A stretch of 64,000 nt of DNA from Methanolobus sp. ZRKC5 (lineage in GTDB: Archaea > Halobacteriota > Methanosarcinia > Methanosarcinales > Methanosarcinaceae), in the NCBI RefSeq assembly GCF_038446525.1, contig NZ_CP151792.1, positions 744,001 to 808,000 of the forward strand, given 5' to 3'. A program made the position numbers and the translations under genes. Within the stretch, counting starts at the first letter, position 1; each line of letters starts with the position of its first letter. Below, one piece after another: positions 6,115-33,648 of this stretch. The notes under the pieces were generated by a model. That model had not been told where the DNA came from, did no database searches, and worked only from the letters and a program-made list of their open reading frames with translations.

Positions 6115-7248
6115 ATGAGTGCTACCGGTAAATTTTTTTATGTAAGCTCTTCAGTAAAAAATATCACAGGCTTTACTCCGGAAGAAATATTGGAAAATTG
6201 TCTAAAAGAACTTGTCACAGAAGAATCTTTCAATTACATCACCGGCGTGATTGGCACCTTCTTCTCCAAGCTCCAAAAAGGTACACCTGTAAAAGCACCT
6301 GTTTTTGAAATAGAGATCTTATGCAAGAACGTATCAACGTTATGGGTAGAATTGAATGTTAACCCTGTTTTTGATGAAGAGAAGAACTTCAGGTATTTTA
6401 CAGGAACAATGCGTGATATAAATGATCGCAAACAAGCAGAAGAGCGTTTCAGGATTGCAGCTGAATGTACTAATGACCTGATATATGAGTGGGACATGAA
6501 AAATAACCATTTAAAGTGGTTCGGAAACATTGATGAAGCACTAGGTTATGACCAGGGAGAAATATCGGAAACACTCAATGCATGGTCTGAAAGAGTACAT
6601 CCGGATGACCTACAAGCTGTCATGAAAAAGATAGAAAACTATCGTAACACAGGAGATATTTTTCAAGCAGAATATCGCATGATAACAAAGAGTGGACAAA
6701 TCCGACACTGGAAAGAACATGGCACGCCCATATTTGATGACGTTACAAAGGAGATAAGCAGGACAATTGGTGTCTGCTCTGACGTCACTGATAAAAAAGA
6801 ATCAGAAAAGGCCCTGAAAGAAAGCGAAGAGATGTTCCGCCTTATTGCTGAAAATGCAAATGATGTAATATGGATACTTGATGCAAGTGGTAATACTCTT
6901 TATGTCAGCCCTTCAGTTGAAAACTTAAGAGGATTTACTCCTGAAGAATTGAAGAGTTTATCTATCGAAGAAAGATTTACACCCCAATCATTCCAGGACT
7001 TGATGGAATTATGGAATGCTTTTTTTAGTACATTCAAAAAAGGATTTATCCCCGATGTCCCACGCACCATCGAACTAGAACAACCATGCAAAGATGGTTC
7101 TACCGTATGGGTAGAAATGCATATCAATCCAGTCATTGACAATGAAGGTAAGTTTAAATTCTTCTTGGGAATCAGTCGTAATATTGATAAACGTAAAATA
7201 AATGTAACTATTCAGCCTACCACAATTAGCCTATTGATACTGATTTAA
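6115..7248 (+). CDS. PAS-domain fragment of the disrupted kinase
   Basis: The 377-residue frame contains three PAS/PAC units. The first starts upstream of the ATG, since coding similarity (CDWNYHLITESANDII) continues back to 6038 without any start codon. PAC signatures appear as FRYFTGTMRDINDRKQAEE, then RTIGVCSDVTDKKESEKAL, then FKFFLGISRNIDKRK. The last 15 residues or so after RKIN are encoded by MITE B. PAS domains sense ligands or redox state and pass the signal to a kinase core, here now in a separate frame downstream. Translation from 6115 would give a damaged first PAS domain. Confidence 0.65.
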   Translation: MSATGKFFYVSSSVKNITGFTPEEILENCLKELVTEESFNYITGVIGTFFSKLQKGTPVKAPVFEIEILCKNVSTLWVELNVNPVFDEEKNFRYFTGTMRDINDRKQAEERFRIAAECTNDLIYEWDMKNNHLKWFGNIDEALGYDQGEISETLNAWSERVHPDDLQAVMKKIENYRNTGDIFQAEYRMITKSGQIRHWKEHGTPIFDDVTKEISRTIGVCSDVTDKKESEKALKESEEMFRLIAENANDVIWILDASGNTLYVSPSVENLRGFTPEELKSLSIEERFTPQSFQDLMELWNAFFSTFKKGFIPDVPRTIELEQPCKDGSTVWVEMHINPVIDNEGKFKFFLGISRNIDKRKINVTIQPTTISLLILI

Positions 7249-22336: not shown

Positions 22337-22352
22337 TTAGCTGACTTTTCGG

Positions 22353-22559
22353 CTACATAGCCCCATCAGCAGTGAGTTCCCGTAATCTTGAAAAGTCATT
22401 TAAAGAATTTCTGTTTCCTGAAATTTCTAAATAGATTGAATTTCTTTTAGAATCAATTTGCCTTGCAAAATCTGTATATTCATTTGTATCATATTCCGAC
22501 TTGATGAGTCTACCACCAAAACTATAAATATAAAATTCTGATTGACAAATTTGAATCAT
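22353..22559 (-). pseudogene. Truncated duplicate of the 597-residue membrane protein gene
   Basis: The 68-codon frame starting at ATG 22559, preceded by a GGGGGAT site, reads like the N-terminus of the gene at 24469 with an internal deletion. FYIYSFGGRLIKSEYDTNEY matches the segment FFVYNSTGKLLSGDGEIYSN, then ARQIDSKRNSIYLE matches AKQIDSKRNALYFE. It then jumps about 65 residues to NDFSRLRELTAD, matching NDFVRLQELTAD. It ends soon after, 117 bp downstream of the parent gene's stop. It may be a decaying duplicate or a small product that still interacts with the same partner. Confidence 0.7.
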
Positions 22560-22675
22560 CAAAATCCCCCATTTTATACTACGATTTAACGCGATGATAA
22601 ACGTTAACATAACATACTGATTAAGAATTTTCAAAATGTTTCGATTTATTATTTGATAAGACAAGCGTAATACTA

Positions 22676-24469
22676 TTAAACGCTCTCAGAATTATTTTCC
22701 TCCGTTAAATTTGCCGTATTATTCAAACTTTTATTGGCTGAATCTACTGATGACTCATTAAATTTAATAGAATCAGACATGTTGTCTGCACCCTGAATTA
22801 TAGTCCCTACACTAGTATTGTTTGTATTAAGAATTACAGATTCGTTGTTATGTGTCGTGTTGTCTCCTGAAATAAAACCAATAATATCATCCGTGATAGA
22901 AGAATTACTGGAGTAATTATTGCCCAAAAAGGGAATACTATTTGGGACTAACAGGAACATAACTGCAGCAATAAGCATGATTGCTACGATAGCATATGAA
23001 GCCAACATCATTGTATTTGTTTTTTTATTCTTTTTGTAGCTCTGTTTGGCAACAACATAACTTGTGCCAAAATAGGAATCCAGAATTTCTGCTTCATTAG
23101 TAGTTAACTTTGAAGATAGATCATACGCCCTTAGCTCAGTGCTTATATAATCTACAAAAATCTTACCGCCTGCTGAGGGAGTGGTGGTCACATTATTGGC
23201 TACAATTTTAAGCAGCTCTATCAATTTATTATTATCGTAGGAAGACAAAGCCATTGCTACATTATTTTTGAATCTTTCGCTGCCATCATCACCATATATA
23301 AATCCCACATTACATAATGCCGATAGTAACTCTTTATCTTCATTTGCATATATTTTGCGAATTGTGTCCCTTATCACATAACTCCATAAAGCTCTGTTTC
23401 TAAGGAGAATAATATCGAGTTTCTTTTTGACATCTGCATTCCTTATCCTTTCAAAAAGGCTTTTTAATGCTTCATCCTCACCCATATGACAATACATTGT
23501 ATTTTGAGATGAAAATTGTTTACTGTATAACTCAACTATGTTCGCAACTGTTGTTTCGTTTGTAATTGGCATTTGTCTGATTTGAGATGAACGTTCCTTA
23601 AAAACATGAGATATTACCGAAGTATTATCATTATACAAATCAAATAATTTATACAATGATTCACTGGTTGTGAAAATATCTAGAACATCCCATGTATAAA
23701 CTTTGAAGGCAACATGCTTAGTGTAAAACGAAAGAAGTTTCCTGTCACTTCTTTCCACATAGCTTTTTATTTCACCCGAATGCTCCCTGAAAACCATGGG
23801 AAGCAAAGAGTAATACTCACTGTAATGAGGAGATTGCTTCCATTTGACACCAAATTCATCCAGTTCAAAATCCGGATTTGGTTCAATAGGACAAATGGAA
23901 ATATCACTTTCATAAGGATATTGGGAAGCCGTGAATTTCAGATTTGCTTCAAGGGAATTGACTGCTGTTGTAAAAACACTACTGATCAAAGAAACCGCAT
24001 TAACTGCACTGACTGATTTTATTGAGACTTTTTCATTGGCAAGCAACTTTCCATAAACATAATTCATCATAGACTCATCAGCAGTGAGTTCCTGCAATCT
24101 TACAAAGTCATTTATATCATTCTCTTCCCAGAGACCCACAACTCTGTACTCCAGTTTTTGTAATCGGGATATCTCTGCAGAGACCGTTTCATAGAACTGC
24201 ATGATCAGCTTTGATTCATAGTTATTGTAACCGGAATACTTACCAACACACACGATTCTCTCTTCTCTGCCACCTACTTCTTCGACTATGACACTGCATC
24301 CCAGTATCAGAGTACTGCTAGTATGTAACAGTTCAAAATACAGGGCATTTCTCTTGGAATCTATCTGCTTTGCCAGATTACTATATTCATTTGAATATAT
24401 TTCACCATCCCCACTCAGAAGTTTACCGGTGGAGTTGTAGACGAAAAAATCAGAAACCGAATTTTGCAA
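22676..24469 (-). CDS. Single-span membrane protein with sequon-rich tail, unknown function
   Basis: The 597-residue protein starts at TTG 24469, with GGAGGGTGG upstream, and overlaps the GTPase gene by 20 bp. Residues 1-480 look cytoplasmic and globular or helical. One hydrophobic segment (about 487-509) follows a Lys-rich stretch. The last 88 residues are rich in Asn, Ser and Thr with about ten N-x-S/T sequons, as expected for an exported glycosylated tail. No enzyme motif is recognised. Tight coupling to the membrane GTPase suggests it is that protein's regulator or effector. A weak resemblance of the N-terminus to GTPase-associated proteins of bacterial conflict systems is unverified. Confidence 0.8.
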   Translation of the reverse strand: MQNSVSDFFVYNSTGKLLSGDGEIYSNEYSNLAKQIDSKRNALYFELLHTSSTLILGCSVIVEEVGGREERIVCVGKYSGYNNYESKLIMQFYETVSAEISRLQKLEYRVVGLWEENDINDFVRLQELTADESMMNYVYGKLLANEKVSIKSVSAVNAVSLISSVFTTAVNSLEANLKFTASQYPYESDISICPIEPNPDFELDEFGVKWKQSPHYSEYYSLLPMVFREHSGEIKSYVERSDRKLLSFYTKHVAFKVYTWDVLDIFTTSESLYKLFDLYNDNTSVISHVFKERSSQIRQMPITNETTVANIVELYSKQFSSQNTMYCHMGEDEALKSLFERIRNADVKKKLDIILLRNRALWSYVIRDTIRKIYANEDKELLSALCNVGFIYGDDGSERFKNNVAMALSSYDNNKLIELLKIVANNVTTTPSAGGKIFVDYISTELRAYDLSSKLTTNEAEILDSYFGTSYVVAKQSYKKNKKTNTMMLASYAIVAIMLIAAVMFLLVPNSIPFLGNNYSSNSSITDDIIGFISGDNTTHNNESVILNTNNTSVGTIIQGADNMSDSIKFNESSVDSANKSLNNTANLTEENNSESV

Positions 24470-25901
24470 TTTGTTCCACCCTCCATGGATAAATGTTCTT
24501 TATAGTTTCTTCCTGCTGATCAACACCCTTAAGAGCATTAGCACTTACAGCGTAGAAATGAATCGGCTCTTTTGTAGCACGGTTTTGTATCTCTTTGAAT
24601 GTATCGATCTCAGTCAGCATATTAAAAATCTCTTTTTCAATATTCAAAGCATCCTTTGAATTATCCATCACATCATTGATATTCTTAATTTTGTCTGCTT
24701 TTGTAACGACAATCGCATAGGATTTGCCTTCACCAAACAACTCCATTATTCTGGAATACTGCCCAAAAAGACGGGTCAAATAACTCGCACCACCCTCATG
24801 ATAGGAAACAATGTGTTCACCATCTACCAGAAAAACAACTTTTCCTGCACTCTCCAGTTTTTTATATATATGGGCCAGAACCAGCTGATCCAGAATATAA
24901 GCAATTTCATCCGGGTGTTTGTCCTTCAAATCCTTAATAAATTCATGGTTACCAATCTTCTCACTAAAAGTCTCTTTATCAATTTCAGGAATTTGTTTAC
25001 TTATTCTCAGGATAGCTTTGAAATACTCATCCGGAGTTAGATTTTCAGTGAATTCACCACCATAATCCACAAAAGAGAATTCTATTGGCTTGATAGACTT
25101 TTTTCCCATCAAAGTATACATGGTCAAATCTGTCTTTTGATTACTTTTTGGCTGCTTTCCGTTCTTCAATTCAGCCAGCATATTTTCGATCCTGTAATAA
25201 TCTTCCTCCCTTGATGAGGAAATGATCGTTTCGCTCCTGCGACCATTATAATAATGGACAAATTGATTGTACAGGGCAAGCAACAGCAGAGTCTTGCCTG
25301 ATTTTGAAGGACCATAGACAAATACATCCGAAGCTTTTATACCGCGTACGAATTTCATCAGCAATGCATACAGAATCATCAACGTAAAGAAACTCAGCAT
25401 GATCATGAACAAATCATTTGAGCCTGAAAGTGCATACTGAGGAATTTCCCGCATATCTTCTTTTGAAATCAGATTTATAAAGATTGCAAACAGGAAAGCT
25501 ACCATTCCCACAAAGAACAATTTTAAAAAGAAACGCGTTCTTTTTGCAACAATGTCAAAACGGTTGTTCATAAATGAATGCAATATGAACCCAACTCCGG
25601 AAAGCATACCCGGAACAAGACCGTCGAGCCTCAGTATATTATCCTGTGACCAAAAAAAGTACAGGAATGGCAAAAAGGCTGCCAATAACAACTGCCCTCC
25701 AAACCTTGACCTTTCCTCGAACAACATCCCAATTCCACTTGAAATGAACAGAGCTATAAAAAAGCTCAATATTGCAGCTATGTACCATACAATAGATAAG
25801 ACGATCTGTTCACTGGTTGCAAGCAGAAATCCGATTGATAAGGCCAAACACAACAAAAAAATAATAGGGTTAAATAAATTAAGTTTCCCCCGTACCCTCA
25901 T
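24450..25901 (-). CDS. Polytopic membrane GTPase, TRAFAC-like, unknown function
   Basis: Residues 1-185 contain about five or six hydrophobic segments. The rest is a cytoplasmic P-loop GTPase: Walker A GPSKSGKT at 197-204, G3-like DYGGE at 279-283, a VVFLVDGEH strand at 355-363, and G4-like VVTKADK at 398-404, where Lys-Ala-Asp replaces the usual NKxD. A GGTGG site precedes the ATG, 36 bp after the tubulin-like gene's stop. Domain order and motifs fit a membrane-bound regulatory GTPase working with its operon partners. I do not recognise a named family. Confidence 0.85.
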   Translation of the reverse strand: MRVRGKLNLFNPIIFLLCLALSIGFLLATSEQIVLSIVWYIAAILSFFIALFISSGIGMLFEERSRFGGQLLLAAFLPFLYFFWSQDNILRLDGLVPGMLSGVGFILHSFMNNRFDIVAKRTRFFLKLFFVGMVAFLFAIFINLISKEDMREIPQYALSGSNDLFMIMLSFFTLMILYALLMKFVRGIKASDVFVYGPSKSGKTLLLLALYNQFVHYYNGRRSETIISSSREEDYYRIENMLAELKNGKQPKSNQKTDLTMYTLMGKKSIKPIEFSFVDYGGEFTENLTPDEYFKAILRISKQIPEIDKETFSEKIGNHEFIKDLKDKHPDEIAYILDQLVLAHIYKKLESAGKVVFLVDGEHIVSYHEGGASYLTRLFGQYSRIMELFGEGKSYAIVVTKADKIKNINDVMDNSKDALNIEKEIFNMLTEIDTFKEIQNRATKEPIHFYAVSANALKGVDQQEETIKNIYPWRVEQIAKFGF

Positions 25902-25937
25902 AGTTCCACCTTTATACTTAAGTTATAATCCGATTTT

Positions 25938-28900
25938 CTATTCAAGTGCTTCACGAAGGGTTTTAACCTCATAAAGATCCTTTATTATAGGGACTATATC
26001 CTGACCGGCTTTCTCTGAGTTTGCCAGTTCACCCGCATATTTCACATCCAGTAACTTTTTTCTGGTAATATACTGACCATCCTGCATTTTCAGTACATGA
26101 TGTAGAATATTGTTACTGCTCTGCTCGTACACCTTCCAGTAGCCTCCCCCTGAAGTCAGCGGAGAAATATTATCCAGGAAACTTGTAGCTGCAAGCAGTG
26201 TTAAGGTTACTTCCCACGGTTTGGCATGAGAATGAGTGATCACACGGGCATCCTGAGCGCTCTTGAGTGACATTATGGCATTGATATCAGTGGATATTGT
26301 GCTGTTCACAACTGATGAAGAAATATATGAAGACCGTGAACCTATCACCAATCCTACTTTTCCGAAGTTCCACTTTTCAGTGGTACTTATGGGTATCATC
26401 TGGTTGTGAATTCCCAGTTTGTAGTTCTCAAGCAACGAAGGATATGTGGCTTTTACCTCAGAAAGAAGGTTGTTAAGCTCGTTCATTCCATTGTCATCGT
26501 TATCAAGACTTGTAAGGTCAGACATCTCACCAATGAGAGACAAAATCTTCGGATTGATTTCCCCTACCTTTGTTCTGTAAAGACTCTTATCAGTCTTGTT
26601 CTTAGATTTGGTCTTTTCGTTTATAGACGACATGAAATGATAGAACGATTCATAATGCTTATTGAGATCCCTTCTGGAACTGAATGTTCTTTCATGAAGT
26701 TCCTCGGCATTGTCCATCATATCGGCAAGAGAATGCTTTTCACCTATCTCTTCTTTAATGCCGTCAATTTCCCCGGTTATAGCTTTGGTTTTCAGGAAAT
26801 AGCCTTCCTTTTTAAGGTATAATTCCGTCAGACTGTCTCTTAAAGAGCCTATCAGCTCACTTCTCTCAGTTTTATCGAAAATTGCATCTATCCTGTCATA
26901 GCTCACGGAATCCTTGGCAGTATCACCTAACAAAGAATTGATAGCCTGGTTTTTGATATCAGCAGCTTTTTTGTGCAGACCCTTGTTAAGAAAGTCATCA
27001 GGAATATAGAATTCAAACGGACTGTTTATCTGGATGTTCCAGTATTTGGCATTGGATTTGATATAATCTTCTTTTTCCTTTTTCATTGCCTCGTACTTTC
27101 TTATTTTCTTCTTTTTGTCTCCCTTAATTAGGCTGACAAGGCCACCCTTTTCCTGTTTTTTCCTTTCAGAATCATAGAAATAATATAGTGCAATAGATTC
27201 GATAAGGCTTAGAAGGCCATCGAAGCTGTCACCAATCTCATGAGAGAGATCTTTGACTTCCTGCTGTATTGCCAAAACATTGGCTGCCCTGAGCCAACTA
27301 CTCTTATCCCTTGCCTTTACCTCATCACTCTTTAGAAGGGAAATGAACTCCTCAAGCTTAATCTTCAAATCTCTTTCCCTTTCATCCAGGGACTGGACCT
27401 TCCGATTGATAACAAGATACTGGTCAATCTCTTTCTCGTTATCAGAAAGCCTTTGCTCTGCCTTTTTACTAATCTGGCTCTTCAGCAGTTCTGCATTTTC
27501 ATGTTCCTCTTCCTTCTCCATCACATTTTTCTCAAGATCCCTTATTTCATCTTTAAGATTTTTGGTCTTGACATTCATGTTGCTAATAGTAGAGGACATA
27601 TTCTGATTACCTTTGAGCATATCAATAAGAGTAGATCTTGCAGATTCTTCGGTTACACCTGATACCCTCCTGAAAAGAAGAGCAGTTTCTTCCAGAACCT
27701 GAATACTTTCAGGTATTAGATTTGCCAGTTTCTTATCATTCTCATCAGTAAGCTCGCTTGGTTTGACGTTCTGCGAACCTGCTTTTAACTTTGAAAGATA
27801 TTCTACCAGATCATTAAACGTACTTATCTTATCAATCTGCATTTCAGAAGGAATCTGATTTGCAAGGAAATATTCGATGGTATCCACACTCTTATAATTG
27901 AGCAGATGTCCGATCTCATGTTTGAGAACATTTTCAATATTTCGATATTCCTTTTTAATGTACTCGAAATTCTCTTTTGTAGGTGCCGTTTCATTGAAAG
28001 AATACTGGTTCTCTAAAAATGAGGAGACCTGCTGATTCAGTTCCTTTCTTGAAATGGTTATCATCTCAAGGGAATTGATAATCTCTTCATACTGGTTCTT
28101 AAGTCCCCGAAGATCCTCTATGGGGTATTCGATTACGTGGGAATTTGCGAAAATAAATGATGAGAAAGCTCCTTTCACATCACTTATATTAATATCACCG
28201 GTTTCCACATGGAAGAAATTAGTGAACACGTTGGGAAACATTGCATCAAACTCATGGACCTCCTCACGTGCCTCTTCCCCTTTCTTGTATCCGGTCGGAC
28301 CCAGAGATGTGACAATCACATTGTTGAACAGCCTCTCAGTCATGTTGAGATACTCAAGCTCTGTCAGGGCGATAGACGCATTCAACTGTTCCTTTTCTCC
28401 CTCCTGTGTCGTGGGCAGAACTACAAAAAGGCATAACTGTGTGGAATCGCCTTTGAATGCACGTATGTAACGGGCAAGGTCGATGAACATGCCTGAACCT
28501 GTGCCCCCCCCTAGGCCCACAACAATAGCCACGCTTCCTCTGCTTGAGAAAGTAGGGAACCCGCTTGACTCACCTTCTGTTATGACCTTGTAGAATATGG
28601 CCTTTGAAATAGCCCTTCTGCGGTGCACACCACCACCAAAGTCATCCATTGCCAGATGATCAATCGTCAGCAGATCCTCAAAAGAGATACCATTTTCGGA
28701 TTCGTCATTTAGCCACCAGGTCTTCACTTTTGGTTCGGATCTCTTATTCTTGACTTTTTCAGCAATTTCCTTGCTTGCGAGGTCGGGAACCTGACTGATA
28801 TTTGCAAGGGATGGTAAGTAAAAGAATTTGCTTTCGATATTTCCCTGTGCATCACAGGAAATTATTTTATTTTTGAGCTGGACAAGACGCTCTTCATCAC

Positions 28901-29087
28901 CTTCTTTCTCGTTTGCGTCGGCATCCATAGTATATACTTTCAGACGTCTGCCATCACCCGAATAATGTTTCAGGAACCAGTCATTGTTACATATTTCCAT
29001 TGTCAGCCTTTTTCCGCAACCACCCACACCGACTATGGTCATATCAGTGGGTAATTGTAGTGGTGGTATGATCTTTTCATAGCTCAT
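25938..29087 (-). CDS. Large tubulin/FtsZ-like GTPase with coiled coil
   Basis: The 1049-residue protein opens with the nucleotide-binding strand TIVGVGGCGKRL (about 17-28) and contains the tubulin signature GLGGGTGSGM at 191-200, followed by NASIALTELEYL, the region that contacts GTP in FtsZ and tubulin. Residues about 500-600 and parts of 690-830 are charged and predicted coiled coil. A conserved-looking C-terminal domain (LTSGGGYWKVYE near 990) closes the protein. It is about three times the length of FtsZ, so it is not the cell-division FtsZ. Its start overlaps the upstream gene by 4 bp. A polymer-forming or membrane-scaffold role is inferred. Confidence 0.85.
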   Translation of the reverse strand: MSYEKIIPPLQLPTDMTIVGVGGCGKRLTMEICNNDWFLKHYSGDGRRLKVYTMDADANEKEGDEERLVQLKNKIISCDAQGNIESKFFYLPSLANISQVPDLASKEIAEKVKNKRSEPKVKTWWLNDESENGISFEDLLTIDHLAMDDFGGGVHRRRAISKAIFYKVITEGESSGFPTFSSRGSVAIVVGLGGGTGSGMFIDLARYIRAFKGDSTQLCLFVVLPTTQEGEKEQLNASIALTELEYLNMTERLFNNVIVTSLGPTGYKKGEEAREEVHEFDAMFPNVFTNFFHVETGDINISDVKGAFSSFIFANSHVIEYPIEDLRGLKNQYEEIINSLEMITISRKELNQQVSSFLENQYSFNETAPTKENFEYIKKEYRNIENVLKHEIGHLLNYKSVDTIEYFLANQIPSEMQIDKISTFNDLVEYLSKLKAGSQNVKPSELTDENDKKLANLIPESIQVLEETALLFRRVSGVTEESARSTLIDMLKGNQNMSSTISNMNVKTKNLKDEIRDLEKNVMEKEEEHENAELLKSQISKKAEQRLSDNEKEIDQYLVINRKVQSLDERERDLKIKLEEFISLLKSDEVKARDKSSWLRAANVLAIQQEVKDLSHEIGDSFDGLLSLIESIALYYFYDSERKKQEKGGLVSLIKGDKKKKIRKYEAMKKEKEDYIKSNAKYWNIQINSPFEFYIPDDFLNKGLHKKAADIKNQAINSLLGDTAKDSVSYDRIDAIFDKTERSELIGSLRDSLTELYLKKEGYFLKTKAITGEIDGIKEEIGEKHSLADMMDNAEELHERTFSSRRDLNKHYESFYHFMSSINEKTKSKNKTDKSLYRTKVGEINPKILSLIGEMSDLTSLDNDDNGMNELNNLLSEVKATYPSLLENYKLGIHNQMIPISTTEKWNFGKVGLVIGSRSSYISSSVVNSTISTDINAIMSLKSAQDARVITHSHAKPWEVTLTLLAATSFLDNISPLTSGGGYWKVYEQSSNNILHHVLKMQDGQYITRKKLLDVKYAGELANSEKAGQDIVPIIKDLYEVKTLREALE

Positions 29088-29824
29088 ATCTCATCATCCT
29101 CATCGTCGTCAGAATTGCCTATTCGAATACCAAATATTAGACCAATGATAAGAGCTACTATAATTCCTCCTGCTGCCAGATACAATGAAACTGCCGGTCC
29201 TTCTTCCCGGGAATTCAGGTAGTCTGCAAGCTCATTGGCTTCATGAACAAGTCCTTTATCAAAAAGATCCGTAAGATAATTCCTGAAGAAAGGGTCATCA
29301 ATTGTGTCAAGTTTTCCTGTGAAGGAGTCTATCTCAGGCACATTTATTGTAAAGATCCTGGTGTCACTGTCCTTCAGGGTATTCTTCTCATCATCAAGCA
29401 GATTGAAACGGTAGTAAGCGTAACCAGTTCTTTTTTCATCGAGTTTTATGAGAGTTACTTTATCTGTCTGAACAACTTCCCTGACCACAGGCACTTTACC
29501 CTGCACATGAACAAGAATTGCTTCATCACTATCATTCAGGTTCAGTACATAATTGTTGGAAGTACTGGTAATATTAAATTCGGTAAAATTGTAAAGAGGA
29601 TTATTCCCGTATGCTTCAAGATCGGTATCAAACGAGATGTAATCTGCTGACTGAGGAATTGCTGAAATCGTTAAGTAAAATTCAACCACATCCCCTTCTC
29701 TTGGTTCCGCAGGCAAATCACCTTCTATATCAACATCAACTGCCGAAACAATATAACTCAGTGACAGTAAAATAATGATACAATAAACTACAGATTTAAC
29801 TAATGATTTTTTTCCTGTTTTCAT
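29084..29824 (-). CDS. Exported, C-terminally membrane-anchored protein
   Basis: A 246-residue protein with a signal peptide (VVYCIIILLSLSYIVSAVD), an extracytoplasmic beta-rich domain of about 190 residues with N-glycosylation sequons (NFT, NIT, NDS), and a C-terminal membrane helix (LAAGGIIVALIIGLIFGI). It ends in an acidic cytoplasmic tail. No family is recognised. It is the first gene of the tubulin-like operon, overlapping it by 4 bp, so it probably provides the outward-facing part of the same complex. Confidence 0.8.
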   Translation of the reverse strand: MKTGKKSLVKSVVYCIIILLSLSYIVSAVDVDIEGDLPAEPREGDVVEFYLTISAIPQSADYISFDTDLEAYGNNPLYNFTEFNITSTSNNYVLNLNDSDEAILVHVQGKVPVVREVVQTDKVTLIKLDEKRTGYAYYRFNLLDDEKNTLKDSDTRIFTINVPEIDSFTGKLDTIDDPFFRNYLTDLFDKGLVHEANELADYLNSREEGPAVSLYLAAGGIIVALIIGLIFGIRIGNSDDDEDDEI

Positions 29825-30458
29825 AATTTCAACTCATTGATTGTCGTTAATTACTCCCACTTTTGCTGAATCCCCACTTCTTATCGTTCAACTTTTTGAG
29901 TATGGATTAATCATGAAGTTATTTATTATGTGAATCATCTAAGTATATAGTCTTTCTGATTTTATTGTAACATTCAAAGATTTATTTTTATTGATAATTA
30001 AAATTATTTATTTAAATACTATATAACGTTTACAAATAACACAATAAATATACTCAATTAAACAAAATAATATAATTTTAATTAAAATCTAAATAAAAAA
30101 ACTCATTTAATAATAAGCAAATATAATAAAAAAATAAAACAGGAATACTATTCACGTTTTTTGTACATTACATATCCCCGAACACCACCTACACAACCTA
30201 ACGTATCCAACCCATGAAATGGGTTTAAATAATTAGATATAAACTAATTGAATATTAGCTACTAAGTTAAAATCCTAAATATTAATCAGTAAAAAAATAT
30301 GGAAAATATTAGAAACATTCCAAAATCCATATTTGAGACCACATCAGCTTCAATAAATCAAACAAAAACAATTATATCCCATAACCACACTACTACCCCC
30401 TACAACGTAACACAAATACTGTTGATAATATTACTACATTTAACAAGAAGGTTACATT
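29825..30458. other. AT-rich intergenic region upstream of two operons
   Basis: These 634 bp between the tubulin-like operon and the first chelatase gene are strongly AT-rich. The only clear structure is the interrupted palindrome AACCCAT-GAA-ATGGGTT at 30209-30225. No ORF or RNA gene is supported. Promoters for both divergent units must lie here, but there are too many TATA-like runs to choose one. Confidence 0.5.
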
Positions 30459-30854
30459 ATGAGTGAAAAAATCGGAATTTTAGCTATTGGGCACGGCAGC
30501 AGATTACCTTTCAACAACCAGGTTGTCACTGAAATCGCTAACATGATCTCAGAAAATCATCCAGAGTACATTGTAAAGGCAGGATTCATGGAGAACAGCG
30601 AACCTACTGTAGAAGAGGCACTCATGTCCTTCGAAGGCACAGGTGTAACAACCATCGCTGCAGCACCTGTATTCCTTGCATCTGGCATCCACATCACAAA
30701 AGATATTCCTGGAATCCTTAAACTGGACCCTGAAACAAACGAAGGCGAGATAGAGTTTAACGGACAGAAAGTCAGGATAGTCTACGCAAAGCCTCTTGGC
30801 AGTGACGAGCTCATTGCAGACCTCATCTTCAAGAGAGCACAGGAAGTCCTTTAA
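30459..30854 (+). CDS. CfbA/CbiX-type sirohydrochlorin chelatase, copy 1
   Basis: The 131-residue protein is a short class II chelatase with the catalytic region [14 protein letters not shown] near the N-terminus and a second metal-binding histidine in ASGIHITKD. In methanogens this family (CfbA) inserts nickel into sirohydrochlorin on the route to coenzyme F430; relatives insert cobalt or iron. A near-identical copy lies at 31648. The nearby siroheme enzyme at 37.7 kb makes an iron-inserting role for one copy plausible. Which metal each prefers cannot be read from the sequence. Confidence 0.88.
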
Positions 30855-31006: not shown

Positions 31007-31447
31007 ATGATCAAGCAATTAGAGAATTCTGAAATAGATATCATTATGGATATCTGGTTGAAGACCAATATTGCTGCTCATTATTTTATACCTGAATATT
31101 ACTGGACTAAAAACTATAATGTTGTTAAAGAAGAATATCTGCCTGTTTCTAAGACCTTTGTTTACAAAGAAGACGGTACGATCAAAGGTTTCATAAGCGT
31201 TATTGGTAACTCATTCATTGGTGCATTATTTGTTTTAGAGGCACACCAGGGGAAGGGTATTGGTCAGAAACTGCTGGAATATTGTAAGTTTCTTAGTTCA
31301 AATCTGGAATTGGCAGTTTATGCAGACAATAAACCGGCTGTTGATTTTTACACAAAAAATGGTTTCACGATAACGAAAGAACAACCCAACAAAGATTCTG
31401 GTTTTATCGAGTATATTATGTTCTGGATTAAAGAAGAAATAATCTGA
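31007..31447 (+). CDS. GNAT family N-acetyltransferase
   Basis: The 146-residue product has the GNAT acetyl-CoA-binding motif A with the EAHQGKGIGQKLLEYC signature near residue 79, and the C-terminal NKPAVDFYTKNGF motif B. It transfers an acetyl group to an amine of a small molecule or protein; the substrate is unknown. It lies between the two chelatase copies, each of which has its own terminator. That arrangement suggests it was caught up in the duplication rather than joined to the pathway. Confidence 0.85.
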   Translation: MIKQLENSEIDIIMDIWLKTNIAAHYFIPEYYWTKNYNVVKEEYLPVSKTFVYKEDGTIKGFISVIGNSFIGALFVLEAHQGKGIGQKLLEYCKFLSSNLELAVYADNKPAVDFYTKNGFTITKEQPNKDSGFIEYIMFWIKEEII

Positions 31448-31647: not shown

Positions 31648-32043
31648 ATGAGTGAAAAAATTGGAATTTTAGCTATTGGACACGGCAGCAGATTACCATA
31701 CAGCAATCAGGTGGTCACTGAGCTTGCTAACATGATCTCAGAGAAACATCCGGAATATGTTATAAAAATAGGCTTCGTAGAGCACAGTGAACCTACGGTT
31801 GAAGAAGCACTCATGTCATTTAAAGGCACAGGTGTAACAAAAATAGCTGCAACACCCGTATTCATGGCATCTGGAGTCCACCTCACTGAGGATATTCCGG
31901 GGTTTCTTAAGCTGGACCCTGAGACCAACGAAGGTGAGATCGAATTTGATGGACAGAATGTCAAAATTGTCTATGCCAAACCTCTTGGAAGTGACAGGCT
32001 TATTGCAGATATTATTTTCAAGAGAGCACAGGAAGCTCTTTAA
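31648..32043 (+). CDS. CfbA/CbiX-type sirohydrochlorin chelatase, copy 2
   Basis: Another 131-residue chelatase with the same opening ([17 protein letters not shown]) and the same histidines (GHGS, then ASGVHLTED) as the copy at 30459. The two proteins differ at roughly one position in five, mostly conservatively, so the duplication is not brand new and both appear maintained. Its own TATA box, ribosome site and terminator hairpin suggest independent regulation. Possible roles are nickel insertion for F430, cobalt for corrinoids, or iron for siroheme. Confidence 0.88.
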
Positions 32044-32501: not shown

Positions 32502-33648
32502 GAGGATTTCGATAAACTACCATCAATACTCATACAATTCAATAAAATTTAAATAATAGCAAAGCAAATTTACTATTATGGATTCTTTTACTGATTTTGC
32601 CTTAAATGAAGAATATAAGCGTCTCCAATCTGTCGGAGATAAGCTTGCTGAAATTGAATATTTAGTAGATTGGAAGCCTTTTCGCCCTATTCTGGAGTCA
32701 ATGTACATAAACAGAACAGCTTCAGGCGGACGGCCTGAAGCTGATGTTATTGTAATGTTCAAGATGCTTGTTCTGCAACAATGGCATGGTCTTTCTGATG
32801 CTGAGCTTGAAAAGCAGTGTATTGACAGGATATCCTTTAGGAAATTCCTGGGATTTCCTGAATATGTACCAGACAGTACAACTGTCTGGTCATTCAGGAA
32901 GAGAATTATCGACAATGGTAAAGAAAAAGCGGTGTGGGATGAAATGCAGAATCAGCTTGATGCTCTTGGTTTGAAGATTAAAAAAGGAATGATCCAGGAT
33001 GCAACTTTTATTCACTCAGATCCAGGACATGCAAAAGCAGATGTACTCAGAGGAAAAGATGCGAAAACAAGAAGAAGCAAAGATGGAACCTGGACTAAGA
33101 AAAATGGTAAATCTCACTTTGGATACAAACTTCATACAATTATTGATAAGGATTATGAACTAATCAGAAGATTTGAGACAACAACTGCATCACTTCACGA
33201 TTCACAGGTTGATCTGTCTGAAAAGGGTGAAGTGGTGTATAGAGATAAAGGATATTTTGGAGCAATAGCAAAAGGTTTTGCAGCAACAATGCAACGAGCT
33301 GTAAGAGGACATCCTTTAGGAATAATGGATATCCTCAGAAATGAAAGAATAAGTGTGAAAAGAGTCCCTTGCGAAAGAGTGTATGCAGTGACAAAAGAAA
33401 TATTTAAAACCAGAAAGGTTCTTGTTACAACTGTAGAAAGAGTGAATGCAAAAATGTTGATGACAGCTTTTTGTTTTAATCTGCATCAATTGAGGACACT
33501 AAAAACCAAAGGAGTAATTTAGGATAGCGGGAGCTATACTAAAAATAAGGATTAATGAAGAGAAATTAAACAAAATGATAAAAAATGAGAGGATATAATT
33601 GAGTTTGAATACTTTAATGATCTAAAATGAGGGAATATCGAAATCCTC
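32502..33648 (+). mobile_element. IS5-type insertion sequence, 1147 bp
   Basis: The 13-bp terminal inverted repeats are GAGGATTTCGATA at 32502-32514 and TATCGAAATCCTC at 33636-33648. The flanking duplication is TTTT at 32498-32501 and 33649-33652; its length is slightly uncertain because the target is a homopolymer. The element carries one full-length transposase and looks intact and potentially active. Size, ends and a 4-bp target duplication fit the IS5 family. Confidence 0.9.
32578..33522 (+). CDS. IS5 family transposase
   Basis: A 314-residue DDE transposase. The N-terminal DNA-binding part contains GGRPEADVIVMFKMLVLQQW. The catalytic core shows the first Asp in MIQDATFIHSD, the second in VVYRDKGYFG, and a downstream Glu-containing section around CERVYAVTKEIF. 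It cuts and joins the ends of its own element. The gene lies wholly inside the inverted repeats and has no internal damage. Confidence 0.92.
   Translation: MDSFTDFALNEEYKRLQSVGDKLAEIEYLVDWKPFRPILESMYINRTASGGRPEADVIVMFKMLVLQQWHGLSDAELEKQCIDRISFRKFLGFPEYVPDSTTVWSFRKRIIDNGKEKAVWDEMQNQLDALGLKIKKGMIQDATFIHSDPGHAKADVLRGKDAKTRRSKDGTWTKKNGKSHFGYKLHTIIDKDYELIRRFETTTASLHDSQVDLSEKGEVVYRDKGYFGAIAKGFAATMQRAVRGHPLGIMDILRNERISVKRVPCERVYAVTKEIFKTRKVLVTTVERVNAKMLMTAFCFNLHQLRTLKTKGVI

Follow-up and report, generated by a model that had tools for sequence, protein, structure and literature searches.

An archaeal FtsZl1 (Tubulin_2) protein of Methanolobus with a predicted inserted coiled-coil arm, encoded beside a membrane GTPase in an accessory gene cassette

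The window analyzed here, the whole 64,000-nucleotide stretch of DNA from Methanolobus sp. ZRKC5, carries a four-gene cassette that includes a long gene of the tubulin superfamily. The cassette and its genes are as follows:

22340-30354, no strand assigned: accessory cassette of four genes, absent as a block in genomes G125, G132 and G136
29084-29824, minus strand: 246-aa surface protein with a signal peptide-like N-terminus, an extracytoplasmic domain, a C-terminal TM helix and an acidic tail
25938-29087, minus strand: FtsZl1/Tubulin_2 gene, an intact ORF with an ATG start encoding 1049 aa (Tubulin_2 match 8.5e-13)
24450-25901, minus strand: 483-aa membrane GTPase, four predicted TM helices followed by a P-loop GTPase domain
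22676-24469, minus strand: 597-aa third-gene protein with a conserved N-terminal domain, one TM helix (490-508) and a short Asn/Ser-rich tail

Translation confirms the ORF at 25938-29087, with exactly the coordinates given in the initial annotation, which named no strand; the reading frame runs along the minus strand, and the plus strand contains stops throughout this interval. The protein is much longer than FtsZ1 (369 aa) and FtsZ2 (401 aa) of the same genome, as had been claimed, although the measured ratio is 2.6-2.8x and not the threefold length proposed. Three other tubulin-superfamily genes are present, with FtsZ and CetZ among the genome's genes, and the nearest named relative, from M. 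bombayensis, shows 90% protein identity.

Membership of the tubulin superfamily, likewise put forward in the initial annotation, is borne out by a match to Pfam PF13809 (Tubulin_2) at 8.5e-13, with 48.7 bits exceeding the curated cut-off of 27. PF00091 reaches 27.6 bits, under its curated cut-off of 33, and Pfam returns no match to FtsZ_C or Tubulin_C in the 1049-aa protein. NCBIfam gives weak coiled-coil-type matches alone (Rad50), and such proteins already carry the NCBI name 'tubulin-like doman-containing protein'. Motif conservation and the structure-model alignment draw on 39 full-length archaeal relatives, all of which match Tubulin_2; nearly all relatives are ~1030-1110 aa long, and their hosts encompass Methanosarcinales, Methanomicrobiales, haloarchaea and ANME-type archaea. 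The gene product is almost certainly an archaeal FtsZl1 (Tubulin_2) protein. Makarova and Koonin described FtsZl1 in 2010; its type protein has 1051 aa, and its layout comprises an FtsZ-like N-terminus with GGGTG(S/T)G, an extended coiled coil and a C-terminal globular domain reported as mostly alpha-helical (PMC2875224). The 1049-aa protein is thus a member of a family known since 2010, not a novel kind of tubulin. Its long helical region does set it apart from FtsZ, CetZ and TubZ, but the same architecture, once taken to be unprecedented, has defined FtsZl1 since that description (PMC2875224), and because the family was already known that part of the claim is wrong. A 2023 study set Tubulin_2 proteins aside as divergent, with N/C-terminal extensions and without FtsZ_C or Tubulin_C (PMC9871819).

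The motifs of the GTPase region, together with the two elements proposed to follow them, map as listed below:

29010-29024, minus strand: T1 loop core GGCGK (residues 22-26), with G22, G23, G25 and K26 invariant in the 39 sequences
28491-28511, minus strand: T4 signature GGGTGSG (residues 193-199), conserved in the 39 sequences
28398-28418, minus strand: T5 region LPTTQEG (residues 224-230), with E229 invariant
28245-28247, minus strand: D281 in the H7-equivalent helix, invariant, the proposed guanine-contacting Asp
28176-28199, minus strand: GDINISDV (residues 297-304), a candidate for the T7 loop; 38 of 39 sequences have an acidic residue at 303 or 304

The full T1 motif reads VGGCGK (residues 21-26), and invariant or nearly invariant positions among the 39 sequences comprise G22, G23, G25, K26, most of T4, E229, N236, E243, E245 and D281. 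T1, T4 and T5 lie within the first 260 residues, where the GTP-binding motifs had been expected, whereas D281 and the T7-like loop fall just beyond residue 260. The guanine-contacting role proposed for D281 is taken over from FtsZ. In a profile comparison by hhalign, the N-terminal region aligns with a combined FtsZ and CetZ profile at a probability of 93% (P = 4e-7).

The T7 loop is of particular interest, since the 2010 authors found T6-H7 not alignable, did not place the elements from T6 to T7, considered the T7 loop unidentifiable and left non-polymerization of FtsZl1 possible (PMC2875224). The initial annotation had called for the T1-T7 loops to be mapped and had named the absence of a T7-like catalytic loop as evidence against its reading; a candidate with a conserved acidic residue is found at residues 297-304. 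Both GDINISDV and the haloarchaeal EDPFAD, which occupies the T7-like position after the D281 helix, resemble the FtsZ T7 motif N-x-D-F-A-D-V. The candidate was placed by eye on the alignment because profile alignment is unreliable in that region; its acidic residue moves by one position from subgroup to subgroup, and one of the 39 sequences lacks it. The weaker conservation seen at T7 than in T1 and T4 is, like the unalignable T6-H7, what would be expected if the protein were a non-polymerizing, tubulin-derived GTP switch that serves the membrane GTPase as a discrete scaffold. We consider such a switch rather unlikely: a T7-like loop and the H7 Asp are both present, and the structure model matches CetZ2 over 328 columns. 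To our knowledge, the well-characterized members of the tubulin superfamily polymerize.

The full-length AlphaFold2 model, built from the 39-sequence alignment, has a mean pLDDT of 87.9 and a pTM of 0.67. Its best PDB match is CetZ2 (4b45), with an E-value of 8.6e-6 and a target TM of 0.49 over those 328 columns, and each of the 50 PDB matches listed is a tubulin/FtsZ chain or a complex that includes one. The model places the GTPase domain first, followed by an H7-like helix (271-296), a short T7 segment, a strand (311-320), a helix (323-361) and a helical region extending to ~895, after which come a strand (910-916), helices (920-938) and two further strands (947-952 and 959-969). We propose that this order corresponds to S7-H8-[insertion]-S8-H9-S9-S10 of the tubulin C-terminal domain, giving the following predicted parts:

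28005-28157, minus strand: strand S7 (311-320) and helix H8 (323-361), proposed part one of the tubulin C-terminal domain in the AlphaFold model
26403-28004, minus strand: modeled helical/coiled-coil insertion, residues ~362-895, with helices 498-549, 551-586 and 763-828
25941-26402, minus strand: proposed part two of the tubulin C-terminal domain and the C-terminal end, with modeled strands 910-916, 947-952 and 959-969

Long charged helices had been anticipated after the GTPase region, and the three modeled helices agree with this, residues 498-586 consisting of 44% D/E/K/R; the heptad signal is modest (p ~0.02 for two helices and 0.2 for the third). The distinct C-terminal domain expected within the extra ~750 residues is likewise recovered, but the model suggests an insertion rather than a plain C-terminal extension, with the last tubulin strands located after the arm. 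As no strand lies near S7 in the sequence, S7 must pair with another part of the chain, most simply with the C-terminal sheet.

Fragment 886-1049 modeled alone is of moderate quality (pLDDT 73.8, pTM 0.52). Of its best 50 PDB matches, 39 are to tubulin, as single chains or in complexes, 10 are to IspF or IspDF and one is of another kind; none of its PDB matches reaches an E-value of 0.001, the tubulin fits lie at ~10 A rmsd, and the PDB is rich in tubulin chains. In SCOP, the tubulin C-terminal domain and IspF belong to one fold, d.79, and the mixture of tubulin and IspF is meaningful because this fold is common to both. Comparison of the C-terminal region with FtsZ/CetZ C-termini by hhalign profiles gives no signal (P 0.3-0.9), and a search of a viral structure library returns phage tubulins (PhuZ-like) and coiled-coil artefacts. 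With strands on either side of the helical insertion, the chain probably constitutes a full tubulin subunit bearing a long arm. On evidence that is good but not conclusive, we regard a coiled-coil arm of ~530 residues, inserted within a complete tubulin fold, as the likely architecture.

The neighboring genes form a recurrent arrangement. Across relatives' loci, the order surface protein, tubulin, GTPase and third gene recurs, with genes usually overlapping or nearly touching. Partners were counted by family profiles in testable loci only: the GTPase directly follows the tubulin gene in 48 of 49, 45 of 47 contain a relative of the third gene, and in 34 of 51 the tubulin gene is preceded by the surface-protein gene, which haloarchaea lack. 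The linkage of the tubulin to the membrane GTPase, by gene order, is strongly supported; filament bundling and bridging to the membrane, as suggested initially, may be roles of the extra regions. A membrane GTPase encoded next to the tubulin gene had been noted initially, and the gene at 24450-25901 fits that description: its product carries GPSKSGK (P-loop, 197-203), DYGG (DxxG, 279-282) and TKAD (400-403) motifs, and four membrane helices are predicted in it. A distinct GTPase, membrane-associated in archaea, is also frequent in the FtsZl1 operons described in 2010 (PMC2875224).

The third gene differs between lineages. The methanogen product combines a conserved N-terminal domain with a single membrane helix, whereas the haloarchaeal one is transthyretin-like, with variable surface beta-domains; the two versions are weakly alike by profile (P 0.008). 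Matches of the 597-aa protein to malic enzyme and other weak Pfam matches were judged to be chance. A separate 103-aa ORF at window positions 22353-22664 (minus strand) is similar to the beginning of the 597-aa protein (40% over 47 aa and 63% over 19 aa); it is probably what is left of another copy of that gene. A vWA-domain gene, common but not obligatory, occurs in most FtsZl1 operons according to the 2010 paper (PMC2875224); Pfam detects no vWA domain in the four window genes, and among third-gene relatives there is a single marginal match (0.022), in one relative. Further genes in haloarchaeal loci encode protein-kinase, beta-propeller and carboxypeptidase-regulatory domains, the kinases agreeing with the 2010 FtsZl1 description (PMC2875224), and Methanomicrobiales loci carry PEGA domains in downstream genes.

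The family is patchily distributed, with a clear match in 33 of the 186 genomes of the order and in 6 of 27 Methanolobus genomes; across the phylum, about 29 of the 295 genomes sampled have a long match. In the empty site of G125, the FdhD-like gene that precedes the cassette adjoins the CbiX-like gene that follows it, the window being ~8 kb longer there; G132 and G136 have the same appearance, and in G118 the cassette lies elsewhere, in surroundings unlike the window's flanking genes. Because no integrase is seen at the cassette, loss and gain are indistinguishable. Viral contigs contain no FtsZl1 relative, and of plasmid records only four show similarity, which is partial.

Several observations concern the surroundings and individual relatives. 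Plasmid NC_014254.1 of Methanohalobium evestigatum (163,915 bases) carries a distant FtsZl1 relative, and three haloarchaeal plasmid records also match. In metagenome bin UBA9310, the tubulin gene at L059:1443-4657 is split by stops or frameshifts, reflecting decay or assembly error. In the window, two similar 131-aa CbiX-like ORFs (30459-30854 and 31648-32043) flank an acetyltransferase-like ORF (31007-31447). An IS element at ~32504-33647 contains a transposase ORF (32578-33522), has the inverted ends AGGATTTCGAT / ATCGAAATCCT and is bordered on both sides by the 6-bp repeat CTTTTG; the uninterrupted site is present in L125 at ~6193-6198.

The patchy distribution of the family bears on two other explanations. 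An accessory role in cell division or cell shape, alongside FtsZ1, FtsZ2 and CetZ, would accord with superfamily membership and with the occurrence of FtsZ and CetZ in the same genome; it is improbable, however, as the gene is absent from most Methanolobus genomes, the genes form their own operon, and FtsZ1 and FtsZ2 are already in the genome. The other is a GTPase-centric biological-conflict (defence-like) system, in which a DO-GTPase switch would control a tubulin-plus-coiled-coil protein that assembles on infection. Kaur et al. 2020 proposed GTPase-centric conflict systems, among them DO-GTPase systems in which tubulin and coiled-coil segments are fused (PMC7159879). The DO-GTPase-like partner and the cassette-like distribution, patchy and with clean empty sites, make this a serious rival: Pfam DO-GTPase2 is matched by 14 of 19 GTPase relatives (E <= 0.1), mostly weakly, with a best value of 1.1e-5, and the occurrence of family members on archaeal plasmids and the variable surface beta-domains of haloarchaeal third genes point the same way. 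The window GTPase itself, however, remains below the DO-GTPase2 cut-off (3.8e-5; 23.9 against 27), Pfam reveals no GAP1 domain in any operon partner examined, PADLOC returns no match, no effector is recognizable among the partners, and the cassette lies beside the fwd operon without a visible defence cluster. We give the conflict system a small share of the probability.

Building on the homology, the motifs and the conserved operon observed in this analysis, the preferred reading is that of a membrane-linked, GTP-dependent scaffold or remodeling machine, for which GTP binding, polymerization, contacts and biological role are what we infer; we place this role at even chances. The N-terminal domain would bind GTP, as in FtsZ and CetZ, and the strands on both sides of the ~530-residue helical insertion would complete the tubulin C-terminal domain. 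The arms may contact the GTPase and membrane proteins, and such contacts could link the cytoplasm to the cell surface, similar to the membrane-remodeling role proposed for FtsZl1 in 2010 (PMC2875224). Taken as a whole, the account of an FtsZl1 GTP-binding tubulin subunit with an inserted arm, acting as a membrane-linked scaffold, is one we could as readily see upheld as overturned. A bolder and tentative extension is that FtsZl1 proteins are complete polymerizing tubulins with the ~530-residue arm between H8 and S8, each filament subunit directing its arm towards the membrane GTPase and surface protein, so that the whole might act as a trans-membrane signaling or remodeling scaffold.

Within the tubulin superfamily, FtsZl1 forms a deeply diverged branch that occurs in bacteria and archaea, and the literature searched contains neither a structure nor a tested function for it. 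The split-fold model, the candidate T7 loop and the conserved four-gene operon with its presence and absence go beyond that literature. Where the 2010 description left the filament-interface elements open, the model offers a concrete answer in a predicted split tubulin fold and a candidate T7 loop, and natural strains with and without the cassette provide a route to function.

Comparison with known systems places the protein among related assemblies. DO-GTPase / GAP1-N2 / tubulin conflict systems (PMC7159879) are alike in having a DO-GTPase-like GTPase adjoining a tubulin-coiled-coil protein, with a membrane link, and unlike in the GAP1 and effector components, which were not found in the Methanolobus cassette. 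FtsZ1 and FtsZ2 of the genome share the GTP-binding core and the resemblance at the T7-like motif, although their sequence similarity to the 1049-aa protein is limited to the N-terminal domain. Haloferax CetZ2 (PDB 4b45), the best solved-structure match, shares the T1, T4 and T5 motifs, whereas CetZ has ~370 aa and lacks both the insertion and a membrane-GTPase operon. Relative to the 2010 description of FtsZl1, the protein differs in a C-terminal domain whose predicted structure is mixed alpha/beta and would complete the tubulin fold, and in the T7-like loop proposed here, and its operon differs in lacking the vWA gene. Shared with the family are a length of ~1050 aa, an FtsZ-like N-terminal domain carrying GGGTGSG, a coiled-coil middle and a C-terminal domain, an associated distinct GTPase, membrane-bound in archaea, and kinases in haloarchaeal operons.
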